From Pseudomonadales bacterium (GTDB lineage Bacteria > Pseudomonadota > Gammaproteobacteria > Pseudomonadales > Azotimanducaceae), in NCBI GenBank assembly GCA_019090615.1, contig JAHRVQ010000031.1, positions 1 through 52,173 of the forward strand: a DNA stretch of 52,173 bases. Reading direction: 5' to 3'. Shown here in pieces: positions 31,347-51,395 of the stretch. Each line of letters starts with the position of its first letter. Position 1 is the stretch's first letter. The translations under genes and the position numbers were made by a program. The notes under the pieces were generated by a model. That model was not told the DNA's origin and did no database searches. It worked only from the letters and a program-made list of their open reading frames with translations.

Positions 31347-31372
31347 TTGAATAATTGATCAGTAATATAGTC

Positions 31373-31414
31373 AAAGAGAGGTCTCATGTTGGTTGATAGT
31401 GAGCCTCTCTTTTT
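31373..31414 (+). terminator. intrinsic terminator/attenuator between urtA and urtB
   Basis: AAAGAGAGG pairs with CCTCTCTTT, and CTCA pairs with TGAG after a one-base bulge. A run of T (about 31409-31414) follows. It is placed so that most transcripts would end after urtA while some read into the permease genes. Confidence 0.82.
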
Positions 31415-31510
31415 GTTTGTTCAGTTATTTGTTCAGTTATTAAATTGTCGATTTATAAGTTAGTTGATCAACATAATTTGAAAACCCAATTCATCACCAC
31501 AGAGTATCCA

Positions 31511-34296: not shown

Positions 34297-35192
34297 CAAT
34301 GTCGAAGCGCGGTGTTGCAACCGATAGCCAAAATGCGCCTGAGGCAAATAAAGCAGCCGGTATGAAACACAATCTCCGTGAGGCATTTCGTCGAGATCGC
34401 GTTTGGCCCTGGCTAATTGACGAGCCGCAACCCGAAATCAACGTCGCCCATCAATATATTCTATACGTTGAAAGCCTAACGTTGAGTTTCGACGGTTTTA
34501 AGGCACTTAATGACCTTAATTTGTATATTAGAGATGGTGAATTACGTTGTTTAATTGGTGCTAATGGCGCTGGTAAAACCACCTTGATGGACGTGATAAC
34601 CGGTAAAACCAGGCCTGATGTGGGCACCGTCTATTTTGGCCAGACTATCGATTTACTCGGCAGATCTGAGGCAGATATTGCACAATTGGGTATCGGTCGT
34701 AAGTTTCAGAAACCCAGTGTATTCGAAGCCCAATCCGTGTTTGCAAATCTTGAGCTGGCAATGCAGGCTAATAAACGCCTTCTGCCAACTTTATTGGCGC
34801 GATTGAGTGGTGAGCAAATAGACCGTATTGATGAAATTCTAGGTATTATCGGTTTAAGGGAGCAGGGTCGAATGTTGGCTGGGGCGTTGTCTCACGGTCA
34901 AAAGCAATGGTTAGAAATTGGTATGTTGCTAGTGGCTAATCCGCGGCTGCTATTGATTGATGAGCCTGTGGCCGGTATGACAGCACAGGAAGCTGAGCAT
35001 ACTGCCGAGTTACTAAAGACGCTTGCTGGAGATCATACCGTGGTGGTGGTAGAGCATGATATGGAATTTGTCCGCAGCATCGCGCAAACTGTCACGGTAT
35101 TGCATCAGGGCTCAGTGCTGGCAGAAGGCAGCATGGCAGAGGTGCAAAATAATCAGGATGTGATTGAAGTATATCTCGGAGAAGAGCAATGA
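34293..35192 (+). CDS. urtD: urea ABC transporter ATP-binding protein UrtD
   Basis: A 299-residue LivG-type ATPase with an N-terminal extension of about 55 residues before the ATPase core, which starts at YVESLTLSFDGFKAL. Walker A is GANGAGKTT, the signature is LSHGQKQWLE, Walker B is LLLIDEPVAGM and the H-loop is VVVVEHDMEFVRS. It powers urea import with UrtE. It overlaps its neighbours by 4 bases on each side. Confidence 0.95.
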   Translation: MTMSKRGVATDSQNAPEANKAAGMKHNLREAFRRDRVWPWLIDEPQPEINVAHQYILYVESLTLSFDGFKALNDLNLYIRDGELRCLIGANGAGKTTLMDVITGKTRPDVGTVYFGQTIDLLGRSEADIAQLGIGRKFQKPSVFEAQSVFANLELAMQANKRLLPTLLARLSGEQIDRIDEILGIIGLREQGRMLAGALSHGQKQWLEIGMLLVANPRLLLIDEPVAGMTAQEAEHTAELLKTLAGDHTVVVVEHDMEFVRSIAQTVTVLHQGSVLAEGSMAEVQNNQDVIEVYLGEEQ

Positions 35193-35884
35193 TTCGCGTA
35201 CAGTCGGCTAATCAACTCTATGGCGGCACGCAAATTTTATGGGATATCGATTTAACCATTGAAGCCGGTAGTTGCGTTTGCCTCATGGGAAGAAACGGTG
35301 TTGGTAAGACCACCTTGTTAAAGTGCCTTATGGGTTTGTTGCCAGTAAAGTCTGGCCAGTTGATCGTTAATGGTGTCGACATAACCCGCCAACCCGCTGA
35401 ATCCAGGGCCCGTATGGGGATTGGTTATGTGCCACAGGGCAGAGAGATTTTTCCTTTACTAACGGTCGAAGAGAACTTGAAAGTTGGTCTGGGTAGCAGG
35501 CGTGATAACGTAAGAAAAATACCTGATCAAATTTTTGATTTGTTTCCTGTATTAAAGGATATGCTGAACCGCCGTGGCGGTGATTTATCGGGTGGACAGC
35601 AACAGCAACTTGCTATTGGCCGAGCACTTGTTTTAGATCCGACGCTATTGATACTGGATGAGCCCAACGAAGGTATTCAACCGAATATCGTACAGCAAAT
35701 TGGTGATGTTATCCTACAACTCAACCAGGAGCAGAAGATGACAGTGCTTCTGGTGGAGCAGAAACTAAATTTTGCGCGACGTATAGGTGAAGAATTTCGT
35801 TTAATGGAAAGGGGTAGTATAGTTGCCGGCGGTCAAATGCCTGATTTAACAGACGAACTTATTGCCAGGCATTTAGCGGTTTAG
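35189..35884 (+). CDS. urtE: urea ABC transporter ATP-binding protein UrtE
   Basis: A 231-residue LivF-type ATPase. Walker A is GRNGVGKTTLL, the signature is LSGGQQQQLAIGRAL, and Walker B is LILDEPNEGIQPN, with the N-E-G variation typical of UrtE/LivF. It forms the ATPase dimer with UrtD. It is the last urt gene, followed by a GC-rich hairpin at 35916-35946. Confidence 0.95.
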   Translation: MIRVQSANQLYGGTQILWDIDLTIEAGSCVCLMGRNGVGKTTLLKCLMGLLPVKSGQLIVNGVDITRQPAESRARMGIGYVPQGREIFPLLTVEENLKVGLGSRRDNVRKIPDQIFDLFPVLKDMLNRRGGDLSGGQQQQLAIGRALVLDPTLLILDEPNEGIQPNIVQQIGDVILQLNQEQKMTVLLVEQKLNFARRIGEEFRLMERGSIVAGGQMPDLTDELIARHLAV

Positions 35885-35915
35885 GCATGTAGCGTATTTA
35901 CTGGTTGCAGGTTTG

Positions 35916-35946
35916 TGTCGCGCCAGTTTAGCTGAGAAGCGCGACA
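35916..35946. terminator. hairpin between urt and ure operons
   Basis: TGTCGCGC pairs perfectly with GCGCGACA (8 bp) around a 15-base loop. No T-tract follows. It may be a weak terminator or processing site between the importer and urease genes. Confidence 0.45.
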
Positions 35947-36053
35947 GGGTTGCCTGACAGTATAGAATAATTATTAATGTACGACTTAAATAGTGGTTTA
36001 GCGGATGCCAGTTGTATCCCTGCCGATGGATTATTACTGAATAGGATGGATTT

Positions 36054-36281
36054 ATGAAGCTTGTTAAATTTGAATGCAAAAAATTATTCGCAAGAGTCGC
36101 GAATCTATCATTGATGTTGCTGCTGGTGTTGCCATTTTCGTCAGCATTTGCCCATCCGCAGGATCAGGCGCTTAATCTGGGACATTATATGACGCACCCA
36201 GAAGTGCTTGTGGTGTTGTTTGCTATGGCGACAGCGGTTGTTGTCAGATTCAAGCTAAAAAAGACAGCTTCTAAAAGATAG
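36054..36281 (+). CDS. small membrane protein between urea transporter and urease genes
   Basis: A 75-residue protein. Residues 1-33 look like a Sec signal (LMLLLVLPFSSAFA), then a short periplasmic HPQDQALNLGHYMTHPE, one membrane helix (VLVVLFAMATAVVV) and a basic tail RFKLKKTASKR. The mature form would be about 42 residues, with two histidines in the GHYMTHPE motif. I recognise no family. AGGA lies 8 bases before the ATG. It is between urtE and ureD on the same strand, so a link to urea or nickel handling is possible but unproven; HupE/UreJ-type nickel permeases are much larger. Confidence 0.75.
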   Translation: MKLVKFECKKLFARVANLSLMLLLVLPFSSAFAHPQDQALNLGHYMTHPEVLVVLFAMATAVVVRFKLKKTASKR

Positions 36282-36342
36282 ACTCTTAAAAGGCAGTTTC
36301 TAATGGGCCCGCGAAAGACCATACAGTCTACTCTGACGATAA

Positions 36343-36387
36343 CCATTAAACCGAATTCCATTAAACCGAATACCATTAAACCGAATA
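36343..36387. repeat. 15-bp tandem triplication before ureD
   Basis: Three units of CCATTAAACCGAATA (first unit ends TT) lie head to tail, ending about 30 bases before the ureD start codon. This leader could vary in length by slippage. Confidence 0.92.
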
Positions 36388-36418
36388 AACTGTTTAAGGC
36401 GCTTGGTGAAAACTCATC

Positions 36419-37351
36419 ATGAGTGCTGTGAAATTATCAGGGCAACTGTCTGAAGACTCGTCAGCAACGTCATCAGAACAAGACATTTCAGAACAAGATG
36501 TCTGGCCTGCGGAAATTAGCCTGGTGTTCGAAAAAAACACCACTAAAACGCAGCTAAAGCAGGCCCGGCATAAGGGGCCGCTATATGTTCAGAAACCGTT
36601 TTACCCTGAGGGCAAGGACTGGGCCCATGTGTATTTGTTGCACCCGCCAGGTGGTTTGGTGTCAGGGGACAGTCTTAAGATTAACGTCGAAGCGAAAGCA
36701 AACGCGGGGGTATTATTAACAACCCCTGGCGCCGCTAGAGTCTATCGAGCCAGGGATCAGGCGCAATTAAGGTTACAGCAACAATATCAACGGGTTGATT
36801 TGACCATTAACAGTGGCGCTACCATCGAATGGTTTCCCCTTGAGACCATCGTTTTTGATGGCGCAGCAGCCAATATCGATACCACCATTCGGTTGCAGGA
36901 AAATAGTCACTTCATAGGCTGGGAGATTACCTGCTTTGGCCTACCAGCTAGCCAGCAACCATTTACAAAGGGCAGTTTTCGACAGCGCTATCGTATCGAA
37001 CAATCTGGTATGCCCTTGTTTATCGACCAACTGGTTATTGGTGATGGATCTTCTTTGATGCTGGAGAGTTCAGTTGCGCTTGCAGGTAATACCGTTAGTG
37101 GTTTTTTGATCGCCGGTCCGATGGATGAAAAGATCGATCAGGCGGCATTATTTGACCAGTTGCATGCCTGTACTGATTTGTTGGATATGCAAAACTGTGC
37201 AGCTATTACCCTGGTCGGTGAATTTATCATTGGTCGGTACCTGGGCCATAGTGCCGAGCAGGCGAAACAGATTTTTATAGCCTGGTGGGGCTTATTAAGG
37301 CCAGCTGTTATCCAACGTAAAACCTGTTTGCCCAGGATATGGGCCACTTAA
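36419..37351 (+). CDS. ureD: urease accessory protein UreD
   Basis: A 310-residue urease chaperone. Diagnostic blocks are HLLHPPGGLVSGDSL-like VYLLHPPGGLVSGDSL, TTPGAARVYR and WFPLETIVFDGA, then the ITCFGLPAS block. With UreF and UreG it binds apo-urease and helps deliver nickel. ATG at 36419 has only weak ribosome-binding sequence, and a 15-bp tandem repeat lies just upstream. It is the first gene of ureDABC(E)FG. Confidence 0.94.
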   Translation: MSAVKLSGQLSEDSSATSSEQDISEQDVWPAEISLVFEKNTTKTQLKQARHKGPLYVQKPFYPEGKDWAHVYLLHPPGGLVSGDSLKINVEAKANAGVLLTTPGAARVYRARDQAQLRLQQQYQRVDLTINSGATIEWFPLETIVFDGAAANIDTTIRLQENSHFIGWEITCFGLPASQQPFTKGSFRQRYRIEQSGMPLFIDQLVIGDGSSLMLESSVALAGNTVSGFLIAGPMDEKIDQAALFDQLHACTDLLDMQNCAAITLVGEFIIGRYLGHSAEQAKQIFIAWWGLLRPAVIQRKTCLPRIWAT

Positions 37352-37404
37352 ACACTAACAATAAAACTAACACTAACAAAAAGTATAAATAGAAGGTCGT
37401 AAGT

Positions 37405-37707
37405 ATGGAACTGCTACCCAGAGAAAAAGACAAGTTGTTGGTGTTTACTGCGGCGCTATTGGCGGAACGGCGACTAGCACGCGGAGTAAGGCTAAACTAT
37501 CCCGAGGCTATGGCCTATCTCGCGATGGAAATCATCGAAGGCGCTCGTGATGGTAAAACAGTGGCGGAGCTAATGTCTTACGGAAAAGAAATTTTGAGTG
37601 CTGATCAGGTCATGCAGGAAGTGCCAGAACTGATTAAAGAAGTGCAGGTAGAGGCTACCTTTCCAGACGGTACTAAACTGGTTACCGTACACAATCCGAT
37701 TACTTAA
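37405..37707 (+). CDS. ureA: urease gamma subunit UreA
   Basis: A 100-residue structural subunit with the conserved [20 protein letters not shown] start and [20 protein letters not shown], ending TLVTVHNPI-type [10 protein letters not shown]. The length is standard. It makes up the urease trimer with UreB and UreC. The last codons (CCGATTACTTAA) are the first unit of a 13-bp tandem triplication that continues into the gap to ureB. Confidence 0.97.
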
Positions 37708-37734
37708 CCCGATTACTTAACCCAATTACTTAAC
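37696..37734. repeat. 13-bp tandem triplication at the ureA stop codon
   Basis: CCGATTACTTAAC occurs twice and CCAATTACTTAAC once, head to tail. The first unit includes the ureA stop codon, so the array lies in the ureA-ureB spacer. Confidence 0.95.
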
Positions 37735-37751
37735 CGGCGGGAGAAGAAAAT

Positions 37752-38168
37752 ATGATTCCTGGTGAATTGTTGGTTGCTGAGGGCGATATTGAGCTCAATG
37801 AAGGACGGCAAACTGTGCAGCTAAAAGTTGAAAATACAGGCGATAGACCGATACAGGTGGGCTCCCACTATCATTTTTATGAAACTAACCCAGCTTTGCA
37901 ATTTAGCCGGGATATGTCGCTGGGTTTTCGATTAAATATACCCTCTGGTACTGCGGTTCGATTTGAACCAGGCCAGGCACGCAATGTTGAATTAGTGGCT
38001 TATGCGGGCAAACGCAAAATATACGGTTTTCGTGGTGAGATAATGGGTTCTGTGGATGATAAATTAAACCTTGGGCCGCAAGCGACCAGCCGCAAAGAGA
38101 ATAAAAATGGCACGCTCAATACTAAACTTAATACTAAATTAAATAATAACAAGGATGGCGAGACATGA
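37752..38168 (+). CDS. ureB: urease beta subunit UreB with C-terminal extension
   Basis: A 138-residue subunit. The usual core is clear: [33 protein letters not shown] and [13 protein letters not shown]. Normal UreB ends about there (roughly 100-106 residues). This protein continues for about 33 residues of polar, Asn/Lys-rich sequence that includes a repeated NTKL unit coded by 12-bp DNA repeats. GGCGGGAGAAG precedes the ATG. It overlaps ureC by 4 bases (ATGA). Confidence 0.95.
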
Positions 38169-39868
38169 GTAAAATTGATCGCCAGTCTTATGCAGAAATG
38201 TTTGGCCCAACAACCGGCGACAGATTAAGGCTGGCTGATACTGCGCTGATTATTGAAGTGGAAAAAGACTTTACTACCTATGGTGACGAAGTAAAGTTTG
38301 GTGGCGGCAAGGTAATTCGGGATGGTATGGGACAAGGCCAGGCTAGCTGTGAAGACAGCGTTGATATGGTCATTACCAATGCAGTAATACTTGATCACTG
38401 GGGTATTATTAAGGCTGATGTCGGTATAAAAAATGGCCGAATTAGTGCTATTGGCAAAGCCGGGAATCCTGATATACAGGATAACGTTGATATCTTGATT
38501 GGCCCGGGTACCGAAGTGCTCGCTGGTGAAGGACAGATTCTGACCGCAGGTGGCATTGATGCCCATATTCATTTTATCTGTCCACAACAAATTGAAGAAG
38601 CATTAATGTCTGGTGTCACTACAATGCTGGGCGGCGGCACCGGGCCTGCTACTGGTACCAATGCAACAACCTGTACGCCAGGGCCGTGGAATATCGCTAT
38701 GATGCTACAGGCCACAGATAATATGCCGATGAATTTCGGTTTTCTGGCTAAAGGCAATGCCAGTCTGCCGCTGGCGCTGGAGCAGCAAATGATGGCGGGG
38801 GCCTGTGGTCTAAAATTACATGAAGACTGGGGTACCACGCCGGCATCTATCGACAACTGCCTGAACGTTGCGGAACAGTATGATGTACAGGTTGCTATTC
38901 ATACGGATACCCTGAATGAATCAGGCTTTGTGGATGATACTTTACAGGCGTTTAAAGGCCGTGCCATCCACACCTATCATACAGAGGGCGCAGGGGGTGG
39001 CCATGCTCCAGACATTATTAAGGCCTGTGCTGAGCTAAATGTTTTACCGTCATCAACCAATCCAACCCGTCCTTATACAAGAAACACCGTAGATGAACAT
39101 CTGGATATGTTGATGGTATGCCATCATCTTGATCCTGCGATTGCTGAAGATGTTGCATTTGCAGATTCTCGTATACGTAAAGAAACTATTGCAGCTGAAG
39201 ATATACTCCATGACCTGGGGGCATTCAGTATGATTGCCTCAGATTCTCAGGCGATGGGGCGTGTCGGTGAAGTGATCACCCGTACCTGGCAAACAGCGCA
39301 TAAAATGAAACTTCAAAGAGGGCCATTAGAGCAGGATAGTGCTGCTAATGATAACTTCAGGGCGAAGCGTTATATTGCGAAATATACCATTAACCCGGCC
39401 ATTACCCACGGTATTTCCCATGAAGTGGGTTCGATCGAAGTGGGTAAATTGGCTGACCTGGTATTATGGAAGCCGGCATTTTTTGGATCTAAACCTTCGC
39501 TGATTATTAAAGGTGGGTTTATAGCTGCGGCTGCCATGGGTGACCCCAACGCTTCAATTCCGACACCACAACCGGTACATTATCGCTATATGTTTGGCGC
39601 ATTTGGTAATGCACCACGCCAGACTTCAGTTTCCTTTGCTTCGCAAGCCGCTATTGATGCTGGCTTTGATACCAGGCTGGATATTAGTCGGCGTATAGTC
39701 GCCTGCGCCAATACCCGGACTATTACCAAAAAGGATATGTTGCTTAATGACTGGATGCCAAAAATTTCAGTCGATCCGCAAACCTACGAGGTTAGGGCTG
39801 ATGGAGAACTATTAACCTGTGACGCGGCTGAAATATTGCCTCTGGCGCAGCTTTATAATTTGTTCTAA
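38165..39868 (+). CDS. ureC: urease alpha (catalytic) subunit UreC
   Basis: A 567-residue nickel enzyme (EC 3.5.1.5) hydrolysing urea to ammonia and carbamate. All active-site residues are present: His134 and His136 (AHIHF), carbamylated Lys217 ([10 protein letters not shown]), the histidines of VAIHTDT and [14 protein letters not shown], the flap Cys-His in MVCHHLD, and Asp in ASDSQAMG. The numbering of His134, His136 and Lys217 equals that of Klebsiella urease, so no insertion precedes them. It should be fully active once nickel is loaded. Confidence 0.98.
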
Positions 39869-39881
39869 CAAAATTATTAGC

Positions 39882-39977
39882 ATGGGAAAAACGAATCGGA
39901 TGATCCATTCAGTTGAAAAAGAACAGAGCGCTGCTCTTAAGGGCCTCGAGCAATTAGCAATGAGTAAAGAAAAATGA
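39882..39977 (+). CDS. possible small ORF overlapping the ureE start
   Basis: A 31-codon frame, MGKTNRMIHSVEKEQSAALK and on, fills the ureC-ureE gap and ends in an ATGA overlap with the ureE start codon. No clear Shine-Dalgarno sequence precedes it. It could couple ureE translation or be chance. Confidence 0.3.
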   Translation: MGKTNRMIHSVEKEQSAALKGLEQLAMSKEK

Positions 39978-40420
39978 GCCTTGAATTAACTCGGCGTCTG
40001 GCCGTACATGAAAATACATCGATTGATGATGAACTCACCCTGGATTATTTACAAAGGGAAAAGGGCCGTTTTCGCGCATTCACTAATAAGGATGTCGAAG
40101 TAAACGTTTTTTTACAACGCGGTCGTACTTTGGCGATTGGCGAAATATTGCAAAGCGCCTGTGGTCAAAATATTGCTATCGCTGGTGCGCTCGAAGAGGT
40201 AGCGATTGCCCAGACAGACGATTGGGAGAAGTTTTCTCGGGCCTGTTACCATTTAGGTAACCGGCATGTGAAGGTTGAGATTGGAGATCGCAGGTTGTGC
40301 CTTAAGCCGGATCATGTGCTGGAGGACTTGCTGGTGCTCATCGGGCTTAAGTTGAGCCATGAAAAGTCAGTCTTTGTACCAGAATCAGGTGCTTATGCCC
40401 ATGTCCATGAACATCAGTGA
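39974..40420 (+). CDS. ureE: urease nickel metallochaperone UreE
   Basis: A 148-residue UreE. The N-terminal peptide-binding domain is LTLDYLQREKGRFRAF. The C-terminal metal-binding domain includes YHLGNRHVKVEIG with the conserved His, and the protein ends in a short His-rich tail (YAHVHEHQ). It dimerises and brings Ni2+ to the UreDFG complex. The tail is shorter than the poly-His tail of Klebsiella UreE. Its 3' end overlaps the ureF start. Confidence 0.93.
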   Translation: MSLELTRRLAVHENTSIDDELTLDYLQREKGRFRAFTNKDVEVNVFLQRGRTLAIGEILQSACGQNIAIAGALEEVAIAQTDDWEKFSRACYHLGNRHVKVEIGDRRLCLKPDHVLEDLLVLIGLKLSHEKSVFVPESGAYAHVHEHQ

Positions 40421-41075
40421 AACTGCTTTTTTGCGCTTGTTGCAACTCAGTAGTGCAACGTTACCTGTGGGTGCCTATGCATTTTCGCAAGGCATGGAAA
40501 CGGCGATCGAAAAATCCTGGTTAACTGATGCTAACAAGGTGTCTGAGTGGCTAGCGGTACAGATAACAGAATCGCAGGCGCTGGTTGATATTCCATTACT
40601 ATACAGGCTGATGCTAGCGTGTAATGCTCAGCAAGATCAATCCTTGAAGTACTGGAACGCCTATGCGCTGGCCTGTCGTGAAACCAGTGAATTACGTCTT
40701 AATGATACTGCACTGGCGTTGGCGCTGGTTAGACTAGTAGAAAAATTAGATATATCGCTCAGGTTACCTGAAAGTCAGCTAAGCTACCTTACTGTTTTTG
40801 CAGCTGTGGCAGCATACTGGCAGATACCAGTGCGTCAGGCCGCGAGCGGTTATTTGTGGGCATGGCTAGAAAATCAGGTAGCCGCAGCAACCAAATTGGT
40901 GCCTTTGGGGCAGTTTCAGGCGCAGAATATACTGGCGGATTTGCTACAGCTCATTCCGCCGGCAGTGGATAAAGCAGAAAAACTCGAAGACCAGGATATA
41001 GGCGCATCTTTGCCAACATTGGCGATGATGAGCAGTTGGCATGAACGGCAATATTCCAGGTTGTTTAGATCCTGA
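40395..41075 (+). CDS. ureF: urease accessory protein UreF
   Basis: A ~226-residue helical chaperone. LRLLQLSSATLPVGAYAFSQ and the following GMETA are the standard N-terminus. It acts with UreD as the GTPase-linked gate for UreG. Three ATGs at 40395, 40401 and 40407 are in frame; the first has AGGT 4-8 bases upstream. The frame is open further upstream but overlaps ureE. A 96-bp gap separates it from ureG. Confidence 0.92.
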   Translation: MPMSMNISETAFLRLLQLSSATLPVGAYAFSQGMETAIEKSWLTDANKVSEWLAVQITESQALVDIPLLYRLMLACNAQQDQSLKYWNAYALACRETSELRLNDTALALALVRLVEKLDISLRLPESQLSYLTVFAAVAAYWQIPVRQAASGYLWAWLENQVAAATKLVPLGQFQAQNILADLLQLIPPAVDKAEKLEDQDIGASLPTLAMMSSWHERQYSRLFRS

Positions 41076-41171
41076 ATGTTGTGGTTCGATCGAAGCAGTA
41101 ATATTTACGGCAATTCAAGTTATCATTTAATTTTTTTGGCAGCTTAACATTCACAAATCCAGGGGGAAAAA

Positions 41172-41801
41172 TTGACAGCAAAACAAACATTAAGAGTTGG
41201 CGTCGGTGGGCCAGTAGGTTCGGGAAAAACAGCGCTGCTTAAATCGTTATGTCTACGCTTACGAGATGTCTATGATATCGCAGTAGTTACAAATGACATC
41301 TACACCCAGGAAGATGCGAAATTCCTAACGGCAAACAACGCCTTAAGTGCAGACCGAATCATTGGGGTAGAAACGGGTGGCTGTCCACATACGGCGATTC
41401 GTGAGGATGCTTCAATGAACCTTGCGGCCATTGAAACTCTACATGAACGTCATGATGCATTAGATGTGGTTTTTGTCGAGAGTGGTGGTGATAATCTAAG
41501 CGCGACCTTTAGTCCTGAGTTATCAGACCTGACACTCTATGTAATAGACGTCTCTGCAGGCGACAAGATTCCGCGAAAAGGTGGGCCAGGTATAACCCGC
41601 TCAGATCTATTGATTATAAATAAGATAGATTTGGCGCCGATGGTGGGCGCATCACTCGAAGTAATGGATCGTGATGCTAAATTGATGCGGCAGGATAAAC
41701 CTTTTATTTTTACCAATCTTAAAACCAATATCGGCCTTGAGAATGTTGCAGATTTCATTATTCAAGAAGGCATGCTTCAAGGTGATGGTGCCCCTGGTTA
41801 G
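41172..41801 (+). CDS. ureG: urease accessory GTPase UreG
   Basis: A 209-residue SIMIBI GTPase. P-loop [14 protein letters not shown], nickel-binding [35 protein letters not shown] and the NKIDLAP guanine motif are all present. It hydrolyses GTP to drive nickel insertion into urease. Translation seems to begin at TTG (41172) with AGGGGG upstream; no ATG or GTG lies before the P-loop. The rare start may keep UreG levels low. Confidence 0.95.
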
Positions 41802-42130: not shown

Positions 42131-42892
42131 TCAATGGTCGCGATTATCGACGGCGATGATTTTTGGAAATGAGCCATTTAATTTCATCGCCTTTAATGTA
42201 GCCGCCAATTTGGGTACCAGGTGGCTATGTTTTTCATGCAGATAGATATAATGGGATACCTTAGCTAACGTGTCTTCGCTCAAGCTTAGTTTCTGGCCCT
42301 GAATGTTTGGGAATTTGATGCCTAAACCGCGTATAAACAGGATGCAATCTACGCGTTGGTCTCGCAGCATATAAGCCAGTTGCTGCACTTTTCTAACCCC
42401 CACAGGAAATGAACTCGGTGGTAGGTTTTTTTCTATTATTTTCATCCCCCTTAGCCAGCCAACGGATTTGCCTGATAAGGCATTCCACCCATCGGATAAA
42501 TCGAAGGGGGCGTGGGAAATGGCAATAATCTCGATAGTGAAGATTGCTTCTGGGACTCGGAGAAGGTTCGGGTATTGTGTTTCAATTTCTCGGCTTCTAA
42601 CCAGCTCGCCATCGAAAAGTCCTTCCCCTGTCATTTTCAGGCTTCTTGCATAAGGTAGCCTGACAATTTTAAGTTCATATCCGTTTCGGTCAAAGGCGGT
42701 CCTTATTACCTCGCTTACATGGGCTGTAGCGGTATTATTTTTAGAAATTTCCAGGCCAACTTCTGGTCCGGCGAGCGTTAAGCGCGGATTTGCGAAGCTG
42801 GAAGAAGAAGTCATAGAAATTAGTAATGTCAATAAGATGTGAGTGCCTAGCAGGAACCTTCTGATGTTTATAGGGCTAAAGGGGGCTGGCAT
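42131..42892 (-). CDS. periplasmic SBP_bac_3-like protein
   Basis: A ~253-residue substrate-binding protein. A signal peptide (RRFLLGTHILLTLLISMTSS then SSFAN) precedes a PBPb/SBP_bac_3 fold. It has an FDGELVRSREIE motif, LSGKSVGWLRGMKI, and the QQLAYMLRDQRVDCILFIR hinge. Such solitary proteins without a permease gene often act as ligand sensors. The frame stays open upstream to 43108, but the signal peptide sets the start near 42892. Transcription is away from the porin cluster. Confidence 0.72.
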   Translation of the reverse strand: MPAPFSPINIRRFLLGTHILLTLLISMTSSSSFANPRLTLAGPEVGLEISKNNTATAHVSEVIRTAFDRNGYELKIVRLPYARSLKMTGEGLFDGELVRSREIETQYPNLLRVPEAIFTIEIIAISHAPFDLSDGWNALSGKSVGWLRGMKIIEKNLPPSSFPVGVRKVQQLAYMLRDQRVDCILFIRGLGIKFPNIQGQKLSLSEDTLAKVSHYIYLHEKHSHLVPKLAATLKAMKLNGSFPKIIAVDNRDH

Positions 42893-43549
42893 GTGGGGCC
42901 GAGATATGGCGGAGCAGAACGACATATATCCAAGTGTTATTACAGAACTTGTCAATATTATAGGCGATAAAAATTTTGAATGCTCGTGGTTCCTGATAGT
43001 AATGTTGTAATAGATATAGCTTATTAGGTTTTGCAATAACAGACGCTGTTCTAAGGTGTAAGCCGTGTTTAATAGTTTAAGGTTTTTCATATTTACACAG
43101 CTTTCCACCTACTCTCCTTATTAGTTTGTAATTAGGTAGACTGTATTTGTAAAAAATCCAGGCGTTATATAATTGGATTGTTGGGTGAAATTGGTTGGCA
43201 GTTGCAATAGATACAGGCTGTTGGCGATCGAATAATGTCTGATAGGTGTAAGCCAACGAATGGATGGGTGCCTGGTGACATAGGCCTCAATTTGAAATTC
43301 TATATGTTTTTTGTTTTTGAACAGTCAATTTACTAGCTGTCCTTTTAGCTCTGTTTAGTTCGGTTGGGCTAAAGATCTGTTTTTGATATTTTTTTTTGGT
43401 TTTTTCTTTACCTTTTTTATAGCCGTCTATACTCCTCGTATGATCATCTTAAACGGTGCTATTAAAATGCCGGATAATTATGCTGAAATACCACTTAGGT
43501 ACTTGTTTAATACTACGGTGTTTGTATTTACAATTATGGAATTTAAGCT
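42893..43549. other. divergent upstream region of the porin cluster
   Basis: The stretch 43295-43420 is very rich in T runs. TCTATACTC at 43426-43434 recurs at 45757-45765 before the second porin. The open minus-strand frame to 43108 is regarded as non-coding. No other gene was seen. Confidence 0.5.
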
Positions 43550-44746
43550 ATGAGATTTCTAAGAAATATACTTTTAACTATCATTTGCACGCTATTCGTA
43601 ATACCCACATCATGGGCAGAAATTGAATTTGCAGGGTTTATGTCGGTGGGTGGCGGTCAACTAATTGATGACGATGAAATTGACGAATATGTTGGCTTTG
43701 ATGGTAAGTGGAAATCAGACCCTGATACGGTGTTTGCATTGCAGATTTCTGCTCCCATTAGTGACCGACTCTCTGCCACGGGTCAACTGGTAGCAAAGGG
43801 TACGAACGATTATAACGTAGAGGCCGAATGGGCTTACTTAAGTTATGCAGTCAATGATCAATGGGATATCAGAGCGGGGCGGTTTCGTATCCCGTTTTTT
43901 AAATACTCAGATTTTATTGATGTTGGTTATGCATATCCTTATATCCGCCCACCCAGTGAGGTATATCGGATCTTATTCACTAATCTTACTGGTGTTGATA
44001 CCCTGTATAATACGTCCTTTGGTGATTGGCAGGCCAGTTTTCAATTCTACTATGGTCGGCTTGCCGCTTCTGTCGAGGCACCAGGTGAAACCATAGAGTT
44101 TGACCTGGCAAATTTGATGGGTATTAATATGTCATTTAGCTATGATTGGCTTACTCTATCATTGAGTCATAGTTACGGGCCTGAAACTACCATCCCTACA
44201 CCTTTGGCTTTTACTGCCCCCCCCCCTGGTGCGCCAGCTGGTACTCCGGCGTTGTTTGATGCATTAGCTGGTTTCCCAACTGTGGTGGAGGCGTTAGATT
44301 TTAATAATGAAATGACTTCCTTTACCTCTGTAAGTATTAATATTGACTATAACGACTGGCTACTTGATGCGGAATACACTGAGCTTAACCATAGAGACCA
44401 GGCATTTCTTAGCTCTGATGAAGCCTGGTTTTTCATGGTCGGTCGAAGGTGGGGTGATTTTACCTTCCATATAACCTACGATATTAAAGAGCCTAATTTA
44501 CGTCTAGGTTTTCTTGATGTTATACCAGATGGTGTAAACGACCAACTTGACGGTCTAAAAGCCCTTATTGCTGGTCAAATAGTCGACCAGGAAGAAAATA
44601 ATACACTTACTTTTGGGGTGAGATATGAGCTTGCCGCTGGCGCTGCGTTAAAAGTCGAATATGCTGAAATCGAACTACAACCGTTTCAGGCGGGTCCAGA
44701 ACTAAAAGGTAGTTTGTTGAGCTTTGCAGTGGACATAGTTTTTTAA
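43550..44746 (+). CDS. outer-membrane porin, copy 1
   Basis: A 398-residue beta-barrel. Signal peptide MRFLRNILLTIICTLFVIPT ends near SWA/EI. The mature protein opens FAGFMSVGGGQLIDDDEI and runs WKSDPDTVFALQISAP, AEWAYLSY and IRAGRFRIPFFKYSDFIDVG, ending in the barrel signal LLSFAVDIVF with terminal Phe. It closely resembles the protein at 45911-47074. I cannot name the solute. A Pro/Ala-rich loop (TPLAFTAPPPGAPAGTP) is missing from the paralogue. The small PstS-like gene follows 64 bases downstream. Confidence 0.82.
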   Translation: MRFLRNILLTIICTLFVIPTSWAEIEFAGFMSVGGGQLIDDDEIDEYVGFDGKWKSDPDTVFALQISAPISDRLSATGQLVAKGTNDYNVEAEWAYLSYAVNDQWDIRAGRFRIPFFKYSDFIDVGYAYPYIRPPSEVYRILFTNLTGVDTLYNTSFGDWQASFQFYYGRLAASVEAPGETIEFDLANLMGINMSFSYDWLTLSLSHSYGPETTIPTPLAFTAPPPGAPAGTPALFDALAGFPTVVEALDFNNEMTSFTSVSINIDYNDWLLDAEYTELNHRDQAFLSSDEAWFFMVGRRWGDFTFHITYDIKEPNLRLGFLDVIPDGVNDQLDGLKALIAGQIVDQEENNTLTFGVRYELAAGAALKVEYAEIELQPFQAGPELKGSLLSFAVDIVF

Positions 44747-44810
44747 AATAAATTTCAAATATCTTTAAAATGAACAAAAAATTTACAATATCATGTGTGG
44801 AGATTAGAAG

Positions 44811-45236
44811 ATGAAAAAATCAACGGTATACCAGGTATGCATCCTTCTGACGACAGCATTGTTTTTTAACCTGCCTGTCAACGCTGAAATGGCTGTAATA
44901 GTTCACCCCAGTAATTCAGCATCTTTGGATAAATCGGTTATATCTAAGATATTTCTCGGAAAAACTAAAAAATTTCCGGGAGGCGGCGCGGTTGTACCTC
45001 TAAACCAGGCGGAAGGGTCTGCTCCTCGGGAAGCTTTCAATCAAAATGTGCTTAGTAAAACATCGGCACAACTTAAAGCTTATTGGTCGAAACTAGTTTT
45101 CACGGGAAAAGGAACGCCGCCTAAAGATGTTAGTGTCGGAGAAGCTAAATCGTTAGTCGCTTCTAATCCGAATTTCATAGGTTATATAGACTCTGCAGAA
45201 GCAGATGCTTCTGTTAAGGTGGTTATGTCATTTTAG
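44811..45236 (+). CDS. small PstS-like periplasmic binding protein A
   Basis: A 141-residue exported protein. The signal peptide ends NLPVNA/EM. The mature part resembles one lobe of phosphate-type PBPs: VIVHPSN, SKIFLGKTKKFPGGGAVVPL, then KTSAQLKAYWSKLVFTGKG and a C-terminal NPNFIGYID. Full PstS proteins are about twice this size, so it is a single-domain variant. It is close to the protein at 47614 and less so to 47091. No permease is encoded nearby. It may bind an oxyanion passing the adjacent porin. Confidence 0.82.
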   Translation: MKKSTVYQVCILLTTALFFNLPVNAEMAVIVHPSNSASLDKSVISKIFLGKTKKFPGGGAVVPLNQAEGSAPREAFNQNVLSKTSAQLKAYWSKLVFTGKGTPPKDVSVGEAKSLVASNPNFIGYIDSAEADASVKVVMSF

Positions 45237-45910
45237 AGATTATGTGCAGCTTCACTTGCTAACGATAGTTCTCGTCTGTATTCGTAATGGAGATTTCCAT
45301 GCCGCTCTATCGGTTGCATCTTCGTAGGTACGAGTCCAGCAGTTAATAAATCATGGCGCTAAATTCGGTTCAGGTCTGGCGGTTTTTGGGGCCAAATAGC
45401 GCTCATGGTTATATAGTTGATTTGGTCCTGTAGCCTGTGTTTTCTTGCTACATTCTATTGTTACATTCTATTTCATAGCTTGGTTTTCTCCGCTTCGTTT
45501 TTACCTCTTGTTTTTGTCCTGCGTTTTTTTTCTTTTGTTTTCTCCCTGATGTAGTTCTCCTGGGTTTTTATCTATGGCTATTTCTAATGGTTAGTTACTT
45601 GTTCTAATGAAAACCAAAATAAAATTGGTTGGTTGTTGGTGGCAGTTGTCTGGGGTATAGATGTTTCTTTCGATTGTTTTTATTGTGGGTTATTTCATAC
45701 CGATATATATAATATCAAAATAATTCTTTCTATGTGTGGACCGTGTAATTATCTTATCTATACTCAAATTATCTTCTGGCTGAGTTGCTTGGTATAAAGT
45801 GTATTACTAAAGCGCAGGCCATATGCAGATAAAGCCAGGTGGGTAGGTTGCTCTACCTCTGACCTATCGTAATTGTTAGGAATCTATTTCTAAGCGGAAG
45901 GAGAATACCC
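45237..45910. other. 670-bp pyrimidine-rich intergenic region
   Basis: 45440-45600 is strongly pyrimidine-rich (TTTTTTTTCTTTTGTTTTCT and similar). A 13-bp tandem pair lies at 45447-45472, and TCTATACTC at 45757-45765. No gene is supported. Confidence 0.55.
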
Positions 45911-47074
45911 GTGACAGCAAGACATACTAAAACGATACTATTATTAAGTTTACTATTTACGGCAATATCAAGTTATGGTGAGATAACCTACAACGGTTTT
46001 TTGTCGGTGGGTGGCGGTCAGCTTATTGACGATGACGAGATAACTAGCTACGCGGGGTTTGATGGTAAATGGAAGTCGGATCCTGATACGGTTTTTGCCT
46101 TGCAAATTTCGGCGCCGCTTAGTGATAAGCTCAAGGGCACGGCACAATTCATAGCCAAAGGCTCTGATAGTTATAATGTAGAGGCTGAGTGGGCCTATGT
46201 TACCTACAATATCAGTGATCAATGGGATGTCCGGGCTGGGCGGCTTAGAGCGCCGCTTTTCAGCTATTCAGATTTTCTTGATGTCGGCTATGCCTACCCA
46301 TTTATACGTCCACCTACTGAGGTTTACCGAATATTGTTCACCACAATAACTGGCGTAGACACCTTGTATAACACCTCGTTCGGCAACTGGGATGCAAATT
46401 TTCAGTTCTATTATGGACGGCTTGATGCATCCACGTTTTTAGCGGGGGAAGAGCTTTTCTTTGATTTGGCGGACTTTACGGGTGTGAATGCGGTGTTCAC
46501 CTACGATTGGTTGAGCTTTCGCGCCACCTATAACCTGGCACCAAAATTGACTATTCCATTGCCTGCAGCGGCGCGAGGTCTGCTCGATGCTATAGCAGGT
46601 TCAGGTTTCCCGACGGTTGCTGAAGCACTAGACGTTGTTGACGAAACAGGCGCATTTTATGGTGTGGCTATGAATATCGATCTTCATGATTGGTTGTTAA
46701 GCGTTGAATATACCGAAGTTGATTTTGAAGACCAGTCGCTATTTAGTGATGATGAAGCCTGGTACTTTCTTGTTGGTAAGAGAATGGGTGATTTCACCTA
46801 TCATATTACTTATGAGTACCGCAAACAAACACCTGACCTTGGCTTTCTGGATGGGTTCGCTGATGATTCAGTGATTGCTCTGTTGGGGGGCTTGCCGCTA
46901 AAACCAACGGTTCTAGCATCTGTGAGACAAGCAGAAAATAATGTCCTGACCTTTGGTGTGCGATACGACTTCACCCCAGGTGCCTCATTGAAAGTTGAGT
47001 TTGCGGATATTGAATTTGAAAACCTGAACCAGGACGGTACATTAATTAGTTTCTCAGTTGATGTGGTATTTTGA
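45911..47074 (+). CDS. outer-membrane porin, copy 2
   Basis: A 387-residue paralogue of the porin at 43550: GFLSVGGGQLIDDDEI, FDGKWKSDPDTVFALQISAP, RAGRLRAPLFSYSDFLDVG, ITGVDTLYNTSFGNW, ending LISFSVDVVF. GTG at 45911 with AAGGAG upstream. Divergence is concentrated in the middle, in presumed outer loops. The PstS-like gene B begins 16 bases after its stop. Confidence 0.82.
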   Translation: MTARHTKTILLLSLLFTAISSYGEITYNGFLSVGGGQLIDDDEITSYAGFDGKWKSDPDTVFALQISAPLSDKLKGTAQFIAKGSDSYNVEAEWAYVTYNISDQWDVRAGRLRAPLFSYSDFLDVGYAYPFIRPPTEVYRILFTTITGVDTLYNTSFGNWDANFQFYYGRLDASTFLAGEELFFDLADFTGVNAVFTYDWLSFRATYNLAPKLTIPLPAAARGLLDAIAGSGFPTVAEALDVVDETGAFYGVAMNIDLHDWLLSVEYTEVDFEDQSLFSDDEAWYFLVGKRMGDFTYHITYEYRKQTPDLGFLDGFADDSVIALLGGLPLKPTVLASVRQAENNVLTFGVRYDFTPGASLKVEFADIEFENLNQDGTLISFSVDVVF

Positions 47075-47090
47075 GTAGCCAGGGTTAATC

Positions 47091-47510
47091 ATGAATAAGA
47101 CATTACTATGTTGTTGTATGGTGCTTGCCTGCATTATGTTCACGGGCTCATGTGCAGCAAAAACCGCTATCATTGTCCATCCGGGCAATAGTATTGGATC
47201 TGATAGGGGTGCCATTTCAAAAATATTTCTGGGCAAATCAAAAATATTTTCTGACGGTAGCAAGGCCGTGTCCATTAATATTTGTGATGATGACCCCTTA
47301 AAAAGTGAGTTCGAGAAAAAAGTATTGAATAAAACCAATGCACAGCTAAAGGCCTATTGGTCAAAGTTTGTATTCACTGGCAAAGGCTCACCACCCAAAG
47401 TTACCTCAGCTGCCGAGTTAAAATTGACGTTGGCAACAGGTCCAACCTTTATCGGTTATATCAATACCATAGACCTTGATAATAGCGTGAAGAATTTACC
47501 AACTTTTTAG
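47091..47510 (+). CDS. small PstS-like binding protein B (divergent)
   Basis: A 139-residue paralogue of proteins A and C. It keeps IVHPGN, SKIFLGKSK, KTNAQLKAYWSKFVFTGKG and FIGYI. The otherwise shared KFPGGG-VPLNQ segment is replaced by IFSDGSKAVSINICDDD, a position that may contact ligand. The signal peptide ends SCAAK, and the cysteine there could fit a lipobox (FTGSC), so it may be a lipoprotein. It directly follows porin 2. Confidence 0.8.
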   Translation: MNKTLLCCCMVLACIMFTGSCAAKTAIIVHPGNSIGSDRGAISKIFLGKSKIFSDGSKAVSINICDDDPLKSEFEKKVLNKTNAQLKAYWSKFVFTGKGSPPKVTSAAELKLTLATGPTFIGYINTIDLDNSVKNLPTF

Positions 47511-47613
47511 AACCAATTTTTATTACCAGTGCTGGAATATCGAAACGAAATTTTGCTAGACAACCAGACCACTGGGTTAATCAGTTAATACAGCTTATAA
47601 CGGAGACCTCATT

Positions 47614-48054
47614 ATGAGAGATATAACATTTTTTCGAACCGGGTTTTTTCTAAAAGTGACCCTTTCAGTGTTACTGTTAATCCCGGCTTACTCTGCCTTT
47701 GCAGAGATAGCGGTTATCGTTCATCCAAGTAATGGTACGGCGATGGAGAAAGGCGTAATTGCCAAGATTTTTCTTGGTAAAACTAAAAAATTTCCTGGAG
47801 GTGGTACAGCTGTACCTATGAACCAACCAGAAGCATCTGCAGAACGAGCCGCGTTTAATAAACAGGCGCTCAATAAAACCTCTGCGCAGTTAAAAGCCTA
47901 CTGGTCTAAGCTGGTATTTACTGGTAAAGGTACGCCCCCCAGAGAAGTTGATAGCGGTGAGATGAAATCTCTGATTTCAGCTAATCCCAACCTGATTGGT
48001 TATATTGATGCAGCGCAGGCTGATGATAGTGTTCGCGTCATTCATAAATACTAA
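47614..48054 (+). CDS. small PstS-like binding protein C
   Basis: A 146-residue protein with a Sec signal ending YSAFA/EI. It matches protein A in nearly every motif: VIVHPSN, KIFLGKTKKFPGGGTAVPMN, KTSAQLKAYWSKLVFTGKGT, LIGYIDAAQAD. A and C look like the more recent duplicates, B the older. GGAGACC precedes the ATG. A strong hairpin follows. Confidence 0.82.
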   Translation: MRDITFFRTGFFLKVTLSVLLLIPAYSAFAEIAVIVHPSNGTAMEKGVIAKIFLGKTKKFPGGGTAVPMNQPEASAERAAFNKQALNKTSAQLKAYWSKLVFTGKGTPPREVDSGEMKSLISANPNLIGYIDAAQADDSVRVIHKY

Positions 48055-48094
48055 AACCGGTGTTGATATTTACCTTTCTATTTCTATTTAGCGG

Positions 48095-48146
48095 CAATCA
48101 TTCGCAGTAATCAGCAGTTGTTAGTGCTGATTACTGTAAGTGATTG
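48095..48146 (+). terminator. strong hairpin after the binding-protein genes
   Basis: CAGTAATCAGCA pairs perfectly with TGCTGATTACTG (12 bp, 8-base loop); an outer CAATCA pairs with TGATTG. It begins about 40 bases after gene C stops. T-richness appears only about 8 bases later. Confidence 0.7.
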
Positions 48147-48821
48147 TCCCCAGCGTTTCTTTGTTTGGGTTTATCAAAATACGCTCAAAAAACAAAAATC
48201 GTAAAATCGTAAAATCGCAGTGTCGTAATGAAAGTTAATTGAGCCTGGTGCATAGTCTGTTTGAGTATCGTAGGCTTTGCTGTAGTTCATTTTGCTAGTT
48301 TGGTTTTTGATATAGTCCGCTCTGTGTACGATAAATAAACCTCTCCCTGTTCGTTGCTGCAATTACCAAGCAAGTTATTCATCTAGTCGCAGCATATTTT
48401 AATCTTCAGTTTCGTTATTAATTTGCATTATTGGCATCGATAAACGCTTGTTGCATTGTAAGTCGGGCAATGTTGGTCCAGCGCTCATGGTTAGCAGTGT
48501 AGTGTTATGGTATTCCTTGAAGGTATCATCTTGTTGAGGGCAAGTGGCCAGGCTCTAGTATAAGTAGGTATCTGGTGTGCTCGCTAGGGTGTTTTTCTAT
48601 ACGCCCAACCTTTATTATCCTAAGTAAACGTTGCTGTTATTTTTTCAGTGCCGAGTCGATAGAATAAGGGCTAATGGTAAATTGGGTTGAAGGTGCCGGT
48701 TTTATGCAACTCAATTTCTGTAACTTGTTTGATTGAATATGAACTGCGCTACTTGTGTTTAATGCTCGCTGTAATTGTTTAATTTACACGGTGCTGGGTA
48801 ACCGGGGTTGTGCTTTTTCCA
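48147..48821. other. intergenic, nothing firm
   Basis: About 675 bp between the convergent binding-protein operon and the kinase gene. Contains an 8-bp repeat (AAAATCGT) at 48196-48216. No gene or further hairpin supported. Confidence 0.5.
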
Positions 48822-51395
48822 TTAACGCCATTTAGCAATGGTTGAAGCAAGCGTCTTGTAAGTAACCGGTTTCGCCAAAAAATCATCCATGCCGCATTCT
48901 TTGCAACGGCGTCGGTCCTCATCAGAGGTGTTGGCGGTAACCGAGATGATGGGTAATGCTGCTTCTTTGCCAGACAAGTTGCGAATTTGACGGGTTGCTT
49001 CAAAGCCGTCCATGACTGGCATTTGACAATCCATCAACACCAGGTCTATCTTTTGGTTACGAACAACCTCCAAAGCGATACTGCCGTTTTCTGCCACTAT
49101 GGGATCTAGTCCCATTTTTTCTACCATGCGTTTGATAACCAGTTGATTGGTTAAATTGTCCTCGGCAATGAGGACCTGGTTTATTTTGGAAATTACCGCT
49201 TCCTTTTCGGTATCTTCTACTGGTGTAATGACTCTGACATCTGTGGTGATGTAGGTTAACTTCACCTGAGTTCCCTGGCCTTCGGTGCTTTCTATCGCCA
49301 TTTCTCCCTTTAATAACTCCAGTACCTTCGTGCAAAGCGCTAACCCAATGCCCAGTCCACCGTGGGCCCGACTAGCGCTCTGGTCGATCTGCCTGAAAGG
49401 TTCCATAACCTGTTTGATCTTAGAGGCGGGCATACCAATACCTGTATCGCTGATGGTAATATTTAGCTTCGATTGCTTGTCGGTTTGCTGTTCGACTGAA
49501 GTCGAAATGGTGAGCGTGCCACTGTTGGTAAATTTGATTGCGTTATCTAATATTAAGCCAAGTGCTATACCGTGTTTTTCTTCATCAGAGCATATTTCAA
49601 GATTATTTAAAGACCCAGTTTCTATAACTGTAGTGAGGTTTTTGCGGGTGATTTCTTTTTCCCTCTGTTTGATTGCGGTATTCAAACATTCCTGTAGCGA
49701 AAAATAGCGTTGATTTAGCTGGGTTCGTTTTGACTGTAGTTCAGTAAAAGCAATGATGTTATTTACCAATCGCAGCATTTCTTCAGATGACTTGTTGACA
49801 GCGTCGAAATACTCATTGACATCAAGGCTAACTTCCAACTGTGATTGATCTGCCATTGTGTTAACAGAGTCTTCCAATAATGCAATGGAACCTGACATGC
49901 CATTGATAGGCGTTCTTAGTTCGTGGCTAATGGTTGAGATGAAAGTGTCTTTAATTTTGTTGCTTCTTTTTAGAAGTTTGTAATTTTCCTCAAGCGCTTC
50001 CTGGTTGGTTTTTCTTAATAATAAATTATCTTCTTTTTCGCATCTAACCTTGTTGCCCATGGTTAATGCCATGATGACACCAGTAAATATTAAACTGAGG
50101 AATAAACTGTTCAGCGTCCACCAATTAGTCGGTGCATAACCGGTGGATTCGAGCATATATATCGTGCCGGAGATGCTAATGGGGGTAAAGGCCAGTAAAC
50201 CCATATAGGCTATGTTGTGCTTTAGTAACATGTCTCTAATCAAATAGACCTGAACCACAGCAAAAGACAAACACACTAAAAAGAAAGACCATAATATTAA
50301 CCAGTAATTTGCCATGATGACCAACAGCGCATTAGCCAGATAGAAAATGATAAGACCCGTGTTAAATTTACTTTGTTTTGGATGTCGATTCGAAATGTCC
50401 AGAAAACTGCTGATAAATTGTAAGTAGCTTGCTGAAAAAAGGATTAATACCAGTGGCAGATGGTTAGCCAGGGCGTTGCTTACCCACCCAGCTAATGGCT
50501 GAATTGTCCCGGCAAGGAAACTTAGCAAGGTACTAAGCGTAGTAAACCAGATAACATAATGGTAGAGCATTTTTTCTCGCAGGGAGAAGGATAAGAGAAT
50601 GTTGTAGAATAAGATCAAAATAAAAATATAGAAAAATACTTCAGATGAAGAAGCCTTTAAGGTGCGACCAATCAGCTTTTTATGTATAGAGATTAAACTA
50701 GTAGGCAGGCTTAAAGCGGTCCTGGAGTTTATTTTGAGATAGATTGTGACGGGTTCATTTACCGCATCCGGCAGGAAAAAAAGAAAATTTTTGTTGTTGA
50801 TTTCCCTTTTATTGTAGTCGTGCAATAGACCTGATATGCGTGATTCATAGCGACCAGCCTTAGGACGAAATATTTCAACGTTTTCAATAGTCGGGTTTTC
50901 TAGTCCGAGAACCAGGTCCTTAATATACTTTTCTTCTCTTAAGTCCTGGTAGGATATTTTTACCCATATTGAAGCGCTACTAAAGCCAAAGTGAACCGTG
51001 TCTTTATTGGTCGAACGAAATTTTTGCTGGTTTTCTGGACGTAGAATGTCACTGATACCCAGGGTGGCAGTTTCATCAATAAAATATAGAGATTGCTGGC
51101 TGATATTAAGTAGGCTGTCCGTATCGTTAAAATGGATTAATTCAGAATATGCTGTGTTCGAGCTCACTAAAAGTGAAGTCAATAAAGAAATTAGGGTGAG
51201 TAACCTTATTGGTGTAATTTTAGCCGCAACAACCTCATGTTTTATTTGCACGCAGGCGAGACTGTCTAGTTTTGATCTGAGGCGGCGGATGTTCCCGCTG
51301 CATCTGCTCCATAACCGCTGCAATTTCACGCAGTTACAATGGACTCGTAAATTTGGCATTAGCATATGTGATACTAGTATTAAATTGGTAGTCAT
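48822..51395 (-). CDS. 7TMR-DISM hybrid histidine kinase
   Basis: Up to 857 residues. A signal-like helix TPIRLLTLISLLTSLLVSSN precedes a 7TMR-DISMED2-type extracellular beta domain (about 95-240), a seven-helix 7TMR-DISM region (about 250-440), a coiled coil, a HisKA domain with STISHELRTPING (His near 491), a HATPase (LILDNAIKF, DTGIGMP, GLGIGLALC) and a C-terminal receiver with Asp in VLMDCQMPVMDG. The family senses extracytoplasmic ligands and phosphorylates its own receiver and a partner. The true start is unclear: the first ~48 residues are Arg/Cys-rich and a GTG at 51251 is an alternative. It faces the porin/PBP genes. Confidence 0.9.
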   Translation of the reverse strand: MTTNLILVSHMLMPNLRVHCNCVKLQRLWSRCSGNIRRLRSKLDSLACVQIKHEVVAAKITPIRLLTLISLLTSLLVSSNTAYSELIHFNDTDSLLNISQQSLYFIDETATLGISDILRPENQQKFRSTNKDTVHFGFSSASIWVKISYQDLREEKYIKDLVLGLENPTIENVEIFRPKAGRYESRISGLLHDYNKREINNKNFLFFLPDAVNEPVTIYLKINSRTALSLPTSLISIHKKLIGRTLKASSSEVFFYIFILILFYNILLSFSLREKMLYHYVIWFTTLSTLLSFLAGTIQPLAGWVSNALANHLPLVLILFSASYLQFISSFLDISNRHPKQSKFNTGLIIFYLANALLVIMANYWLILWSFFLVCLSFAVVQVYLIRDMLLKHNIAYMGLLAFTPISISGTIYMLESTGYAPTNWWTLNSLFLSLIFTGVIMALTMGNKVRCEKEDNLLLRKTNQEALEENYKLLKRSNKIKDTFISTISHELRTPINGMSGSIALLEDSVNTMADQSQLEVSLDVNEYFDAVNKSSEEMLRLVNNIIAFTELQSKRTQLNQRYFSLQECLNTAIKQREKEITRKNLTTVIETGSLNNLEICSDEEKHGIALGLILDNAIKFTNSGTLTISTSVEQQTDKQSKLNITISDTGIGMPASKIKQVMEPFRQIDQSASRAHGGLGIGLALCTKVLELLKGEMAIESTEGQGTQVKLTYITTDVRVITPVEDTEKEAVISKINQVLIAEDNLTNQLVIKRMVEKMGLDPIVAENGSIALEVVRNQKIDLVLMDCQMPVMDGFEATRQIRNLSGKEAALPIISVTANTSDEDRRRCKECGMDDFLAKPVTYKTLASTIAKWR

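Follow-up and report, generated by a model that had tools for sequence, protein, structure and literature searches.

Substrate-binding proteins (SBPs) that assist receptors, as PstS does in the PstS-CtpL pair, are generally complete two-lobe proteins and often belong to an importer. In the AatJ-AauS system, as outlined in the accessible part of the source, the binding protein is encoded beside the receptor and is thought to activate it (PMC7386598). A different arrangement is found in YfiBNR, which the accessible part of its source describes as a tripartite cyclic di-GMP (c-di-GMP) system in which YfiB carries a PAL domain, with output variants that use GGDEF-EAL proteins, HPT proteins or sensor kinases (PMC3375315). 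Here we compare with these systems a gene cluster at positions 42,131 to 51,395 of a 52,173-nucleotide stretch (the window) of contig JAHRVQ010000031.1 from a Pseudomonadales bacterium, in which porin genes are paired with genes for small PstS-like proteins. Searches of the open-licence literature aimed at such a porin-small module listed no description of it.

Across the genomes surveyed, a porin gene and a gene encoding a single PstS lobe (the small gene) make up a conserved unit; the two mostly run in the same direction and are inherited jointly. Summed over all surveys, 154 of 179 small genes adjoin a co-directional porin-like gene (class survey, 59/68; pattern-found loci, 48/53; the other copies in this genome, 4/4; relatives, 5/5; window, 2/3; other classes, 18/20; plasmids, 5/7; extra class loci, 13/19). 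In the distant-gene control, none of 637 open reading frames (ORFs) located at least four genes away was porin-like; these controls are counted per gene and the neighbours per small gene. The 68 small genes of the class survey come from 60 regions, mostly at the top of the class-genome match list. The extra class set consists of 20 regions selected because their frames were long or their scores lower; L173 yielded no match. Four of the set's 19 small genes (L170, L171, L172 and L174) are full-length and PstS-like, and they were kept in the totals. The plasmid loci L160 and L165 were scored as porin-negative, though the L165 record annotates a porin directly upstream.

Among 113 pairs in which the porin has 300 or more residues, the porin gene comes first in 93 and the small gene in 20. 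Distances between porins correlate with distances between small proteins over these pairs (Mantel r 0.79), and none of 999 shuffles of porins among paralogues within genomes reached this value; the correlation shows joint inheritance, not contact. A preliminary description of the cluster had proposed searching many genomes for co-occurrence of the porin, the small protein and a DISM kinase; a dedicated permease operon that always partners the small proteins would have counted against its reading. The pairing proved to recur widely, and no PstA/PstC-like permease was present among 665 near genes, of which three were ATPase-like; this check covers the loci of the main neighbour survey, and the extra class, other-class and plasmid loci lie outside it. 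Near two loci outside the check (L163 and L166) there are ABC-type genes of other kinds.

Seven copies of the small gene occur in this genome, three in the window and one each on contigs C10, C83, C11 and C22. A profile search at E≤1e-5 identified small-protein matches in 73 of 274 genomes of the class (own genome included), with a maximum of twelve in one genome; the weakest of these matches include a few full-length PstS proteins. In a sample of the phylum, 35 of 249 genomes matched at E≤1e-8 (own genome included), 18 of them outside the class. Close kin often lack the small protein, because a single-query search matched only three of 28 relatives besides the genome itself. Named carriers include Colwellia, Pseudoalteromonas, Alkalimonas, Rheinheimera, Massilia and one Gemmatimonadetes bin, and plasmid carriers include Pseudomonas aeruginosa, Caballeronia, Alteromonas and Massilia. 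The match is labelled “phosphate ABC transporter substrate-binding protein” in 12 of the 20 plasmid records listed.

On large P. aeruginosa plasmids, a trio of methyl-accepting chemotaxis protein (MCP), porin and small genes stands beside TetR regulators, near an efflux pump gene in L159 and near an acyl-CoA ligase gene in L165; on an Alteromonas plasmid (L161), a small gene followed by a porin gene adjoins a type IV CRISPR locus. The plasmid copies beside efflux or catabolic genes prompted a comparison with McpT-type hydrocarbon taxis, which was rejected. At the DNA level, 10 plasmid records matched the plasmid trio; in three the match covered the trio, and in seven it was confined to a short part of the chemoreceptor gene. 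None of the 10 is from Pseudomonas putida, and the presence of pTTS12 or pGRT1 in the collection was unchecked. In the accessible part of the pTTS12 paper, mcpT-2 is carried on a transposon and the word porin is absent.

The three small proteins of the window share 46-69% pairwise identity, and none has a Pfam family match at E≤1. Only small3 matches the NCBIfam PstS family (TIGR02136; E 1.1e-4, 21.6 bits against a cut-off of 206.6), aligning to positions 118-230 of 295; the meaningful sequence matches of the small proteins are to PstS and are weak, and two further matches in one of the searches were at chance level (E 1.5). An AlphaFold2 (AF2) model of small3 built from 47 sequences has a predicted local distance difference test score (pLDDT) of 89.5, and a PDB search with this model placed PstS on top (4exl; E 1.8e-7, 119 alignment columns of 262 residues). 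In an alignment with the genome's own PstS proteins, the small proteins fall on the inserted lobe, domain II. Based on the predicted fold, the small proteins, at 139-146 amino acids (aa) and matching ~120 columns of a ~260-residue PstS, are one PstS lobe (domain II) rather than small complete binding proteins of two lobes. Two pst-like operons elsewhere in this genome, whose permease and ATPase genes were named by eye, each contain a full-length PstS, one scoring above the family cut-off and one below.

The phosphate-binding loop of Escherichia coli PstS, which we take to comprise R135, S139, G140 and T141, was mapped by hand onto 55 small-protein sequences. The R135 column contains L or Q in 52 of the 55, and the residues S139 and T141 are retained in 15 and 7, respectively. 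Judged from these columns, the anion (phosphate) loop of the small proteins is degenerate, and the phosphate-type ligand implied by the preliminary description was therefore set aside as unsupported.

Porin 1 matched the Pfam family Porin_4 above its cut-off of 27 bits (E 1.6e-6, 28.6 bits), and porin 2 matched below it (E 2.9e-5, 24.5 bits). The AF2 model of porin 1 (pLDDT 85.5) has 16 strands, and a fold search in PDB returned general porins as the best matches, at ~10% identity; in its predicted fold, the protein is a 16-strand beta-barrel of the general porin type.

Signalling genes frequently accompany the pairs. Over all surveys, 94 of 179 small genes have a signalling gene within three genes, a total that includes two counts contributed by the hybrid kinase in the window; by set, the values are 30/68 in the class survey, 28/53 at pattern-found loci, 4/4 for the other copies in this genome, 4/5 in relatives, 2/3 in the window, 16/20 in other classes, 5/7 on plasmids and 5/19 at extra class loci. 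Among genes at least four places away, 13 of 637 are signalling genes, some 2% for each gene and around 12% for a set of six neighbours. Receptors are undercounted, as at least one (G107) was missed by gene calling; ten large unclassified neighbours scanned as hidden receptors contained no signalling domain, and one of them matched no family at all.

Within the class, the signalling neighbours are mainly MCPs and GGDEF-EAL proteins; one relative has a class III cyclase. All 29 proteins of the A2 set contain MCPsignal, two of them being second MCPs farther from the pair; a truncated chemoreceptor (L019) falls outside A2, the L183 chemoreceptor outside A6 and the L183 kinase, owing to its length, outside the Pfam scan. 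In other classes, 15 of 20 loci have a kinase within three genes, a hybrid kinase directly follows the small gene in 12, and kinase and small genes overlap by 4 or 8 bases in seven. The copies on C10 and C11 of this genome form rows of small, porin and GGDEF/EAL genes, the C83 copy forms a row of kinase, porin and small genes, and the C22 copy has an MCP three genes away.

The MCPs near small genes have a ~155-residue helical domain between two predicted membrane helices, and a Pfam scan of 31 such domains identified no consistent family. Run against a set of 18 proteins, a hidden Markov model built solely from MCPs matched two kinases from clusters of the class (E 1.2e-36 and 1.1e-17), one of which is the kinase of the C83 copy, and profile alignment of the MCP and kinase domains gave a probability of 95%. 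One cluster diguanylate cyclase matches part of the domain (E 4.3e-9). Of 46 MCPs near a small gene, 44 match the helical-domain profile, many of which helped to build it. Of the 274 class genomes, 33 contain the domain, and small genes are present in 28 of the 33 (base rate, 73/274; hypergeometric 8e-14), with a small-gene list that omits the weakest class-survey matches. Of 42 domain matches, 24 lie within 6 kb of a small gene; by hand count, 18 of the 42 are rows or near-copies of the searched alignment, and six of the other 24 lie within 6 kb of a small gene.

In two genomes (L166 and L167), a protein with a J-like domain ends in the small domain; inspection by eye indicates a single membrane helix and an extended linker as its further parts. 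The J-like domains match DnaJ below the cut-off in one case (E 0.019) and above it in the other (E 5.7e-7). A barrel-type gene follows 25 and 35 bases downstream of the fusion genes, and glycosyltransferase or exporter genes are nearby; in L103, a relative of the fusion N-terminus is encoded as a separate gene before a porin gene and a small gene. The small domain can thus be attached to the inner membrane while its gene stays next to one for a barrel.

Given that many bacteria have the pairing, frequently next to signalling receptors, it probably belongs to a device for sensing and not to one for import. From gene layouts and predicted folds, we think it fairly likely that the pairs supply the outer half of a sensory module spanning the envelope and consisting of a porin, a periplasmic half-SBP, an inner-membrane receptor and interchangeable outputs. 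The porin would admit or recognise a solute, or the state of the outer membrane, and the soluble half-SBP would carry the signal through the periplasm to the receptor, where it would dock on the periplasmic domain. The receptor output would then set behaviour: chemotaxis through an MCP, c-di-GMP through a GGDEF-EAL protein, a phosphorelay through a hybrid kinase, or a cyclic nucleotide. The docking domain would be the ~155-residue helical domain in MCPs of Gammaproteobacteria and in the two kinases, and other domains in other receptors. With somewhat less confidence, and just short of an even chance, we suggest that the modules constitute an unnamed, widespread family of trans-envelope receptors, with the porin as outer sensor, a half-PstS as messenger and, in many Gammaproteobacteria, the unnamed helical domain as readout. 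In that family, the helical domain would be common to chemoreceptors, to some of the hybrid kinases and, partly, to one diguanylate cyclase, and the whole may be a second solution, built from transport parts, to the design problem solved by YfiBNR. The preliminary description had suggested that the binding proteins buffer or sense a solute entering by the porins and inform the neighbouring kinase; the widespread pairing and the nearby receptors agree with the general idea, whereas the kinase, the SBP-like protein and the phosphate-type ligand are not supported as parts of it.

Several observations weigh against the sensory module. No recognised signalling gene lies within three genes of 38 of the 68 class-survey small genes, and the correlation of porin and small-protein distances may only reflect linked genes moving together. 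Kinases of other classes have no detectable helical domain (none is among the four matches of the profile in those loci), and GGDEF-EAL receptors mostly carry a longer, unrelated domain (hhalign probability, 0.2%); a single docking domain for all outputs was therefore rejected. A study of SBP-kinase pairs cautions that genes of the two kinds may be neighbours without a functional link (PMC11113362). In the window, no receptor of the helical-domain family stands beside the pairs. The genome does contain an orphan MCP of this family on contig C92 (Table 1), and the 12 kb around it showed neither a porin gene nor a small gene; its domain is nearest to that of a Bowmanella trio (L025). We predict that this MCP is the likeliest receptor of the window pairs, an assignment that follows from domain similarity only (36% to its nearest relative). 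By eye, the C92 MCP adjoins genes resembling CheR and a GGDEF-EAL response regulator, and a further MCP on contig C74 has a more distant helical domain and long internal repeats.

The frequency of pairs lacking a signalling neighbour would also be expected if the pairs scavenged or buffered passively, with the porin admitting a solute, the half-SBP holding it for a separate transporter and the receptors sensing the same solute directly; pairs in Alkalimonas and Rheinheimera, which by eye sit among housekeeping-like genes, would fit as well. However, Pst-type permeases are absent from the near genes, signalling genes are enriched relative to distant genes, and one receptor domain is common to the cluster MCPs and two kinases, and we regard scavenging as unlikely. 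The fusion proteins, which stand near glycosyltransferase or ABC-2 exporter genes, and the GGDEF-EAL neighbours would fit a complex for outer-membrane anchoring or export, in which the half-SBP would be a barrel lid or a tether to the inner membrane and the signalling proteins would sense the state of the envelope or surface. As only two fusion loci were seen, such a complex seems unlikely, slightly more so than scavenging. That the small proteins are degenerate PstS relics without function, as the loss of one lobe and the degenerate phosphate loop might indicate, is extremely unlikely given their conservation across classes, their several copies per genome and their mostly intact frames.

The preliminary description proposed the 7TMR-DISM hybrid kinase in the window as the receptor of the pairs. 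It is the nearest receptor gene, and hybrid kinases stand next to pairs at other loci, among them a paralogous copy of this genome (L014). Its Pfam domains (7TMR-DISMED2, 7TMR-DISM_7TM, HisKA, HATPase and receiver) are those of a DISM receptor kinase. However, its gene is convergent with the pairs and 767 bp away, its sensor domain is different, and conserved linkage is lacking: the N-terminus had no match in 37 other relatives at E≤1e-20 or in 184 other genomes of the class at E≤1e-30, and no DISM domain was found in nine Pfam-scanned cluster kinases, eight of them from other classes. The kinase was accordingly rejected as a conserved partner; as the receptor of the window pairs it is unlikely, ranking between scavenging and the anchoring complex in probability, and because it lacks conserved linkage it is our second choice after the C92 MCP.

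If the sensory module is real, porins can be devoted to signal input, and the conserved receptor domain, which lacks a Pfam family, acquires a partner, so that its ligands can be sought by experiment. Many proteins annotated as “phosphate ABC transporter substrate-binding protein” may be misnamed sensory parts.

In the window, the cluster follows a urease region in the order SBP-like ORF, porin 1, small1, porin 2, small2, small3 and DISM kinase, with the first and last genes on the reverse strand (Table 1). The two paralogous porins, the three ~140-residue PstS-like proteins and the hybrid kinase are all encoded as the preliminary description had them, and none of the seven ORFs of the cluster is an ABC importer permease or ATPase; ABC genes at about 31-36 kb were assigned by eye to the urea cluster upstream. 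The first ORF has no Pfam or NCBIfam match, so its SBP_bac_3 label is unconfirmed; with one weak relative (35 bits, L021) among the examined loci and no conserved linkage, it is probably a bystander rather than part of the cluster. Urea import and urease genes, recognised by eye, lie directly upstream, and this stretch includes an additional porin-like ORF.

Table 1. Coordinates of the window cluster and of related features discussed in the text.
Feature	Position	Strand	Remarks
SBP_bac_3-like ORF	42131..43108	-	325 aa in the ORF call, start possibly further in; divergent
Porin 1	43550..44746	+	398 aa; Porin_4 match; AF2 model a 16-strand barrel
small1	44811..45236	+	141 aa; single-lobe PstS-like; 64 bp after porin 1
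Porin 2	45911..47074	+	387 aa; 56% identity to porin 1
small2	47091..47510	+	139 aa; 16 bp after porin 2
small3	47614..48054	+	146 aa; 103 bp after small2; no porin of its own
7TMR-DISM hybrid histidine kinase	48822..51395	-	857 aa; convergent, 767 bp away; module membership doubtful
Urea import and urease genes	window 28704-41801		by eye
Porin-like ORF in urea/urease stretch	window 28704-29939		
Small-domain fusion proteins	L166 4741-6765; L167 3731-5437		
Orphan MCP with helical domain, G000:C92	L227 5030-6661		543 aa
MCP with more distant helical domain, G000:C74	L228 6357-10082		1241 aa

The porin 1 model shares its fold and strand number with the general 16-strand porins Omp32, OmpU/OmpT and PorB, whereas the window porins differ from these in their genetic coupling to a half-SBP and in the ~10% identity of the fold search. 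The small proteins resemble domain II of PstS from the PstSCAB importer; unlike PstS, they lack one lobe, their anion loop is degenerate and no permease is encoded beside them. With SBP-assisted receptors, the pairs share a binding-protein fold encoded beside receptors, as found for 94 of the 179 small genes and, in the window itself, only through the DISM kinase; here, however, the binding proteins are single lobes paired with a porin. YfiR is not known to be PstS-like, and the small proteins, with their PstS fold matches and no Pfam match, do not belong with the YfiR-family relays. The likeness to YfiBNR, as far as the accessible description of that system goes, is one of gene layout, which would fit an outer-membrane part, a periplasmic relay, an inner-membrane receptor and modular outputs; the gene order and the varied outputs are seen across the loci, and in the window copy the only such neighbour is the DISM kinase. 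In contrast to YfiBNR, a porin barrel would form the outer part here and a single lobe of PstS would act as relay, and MCP outputs are frequent.

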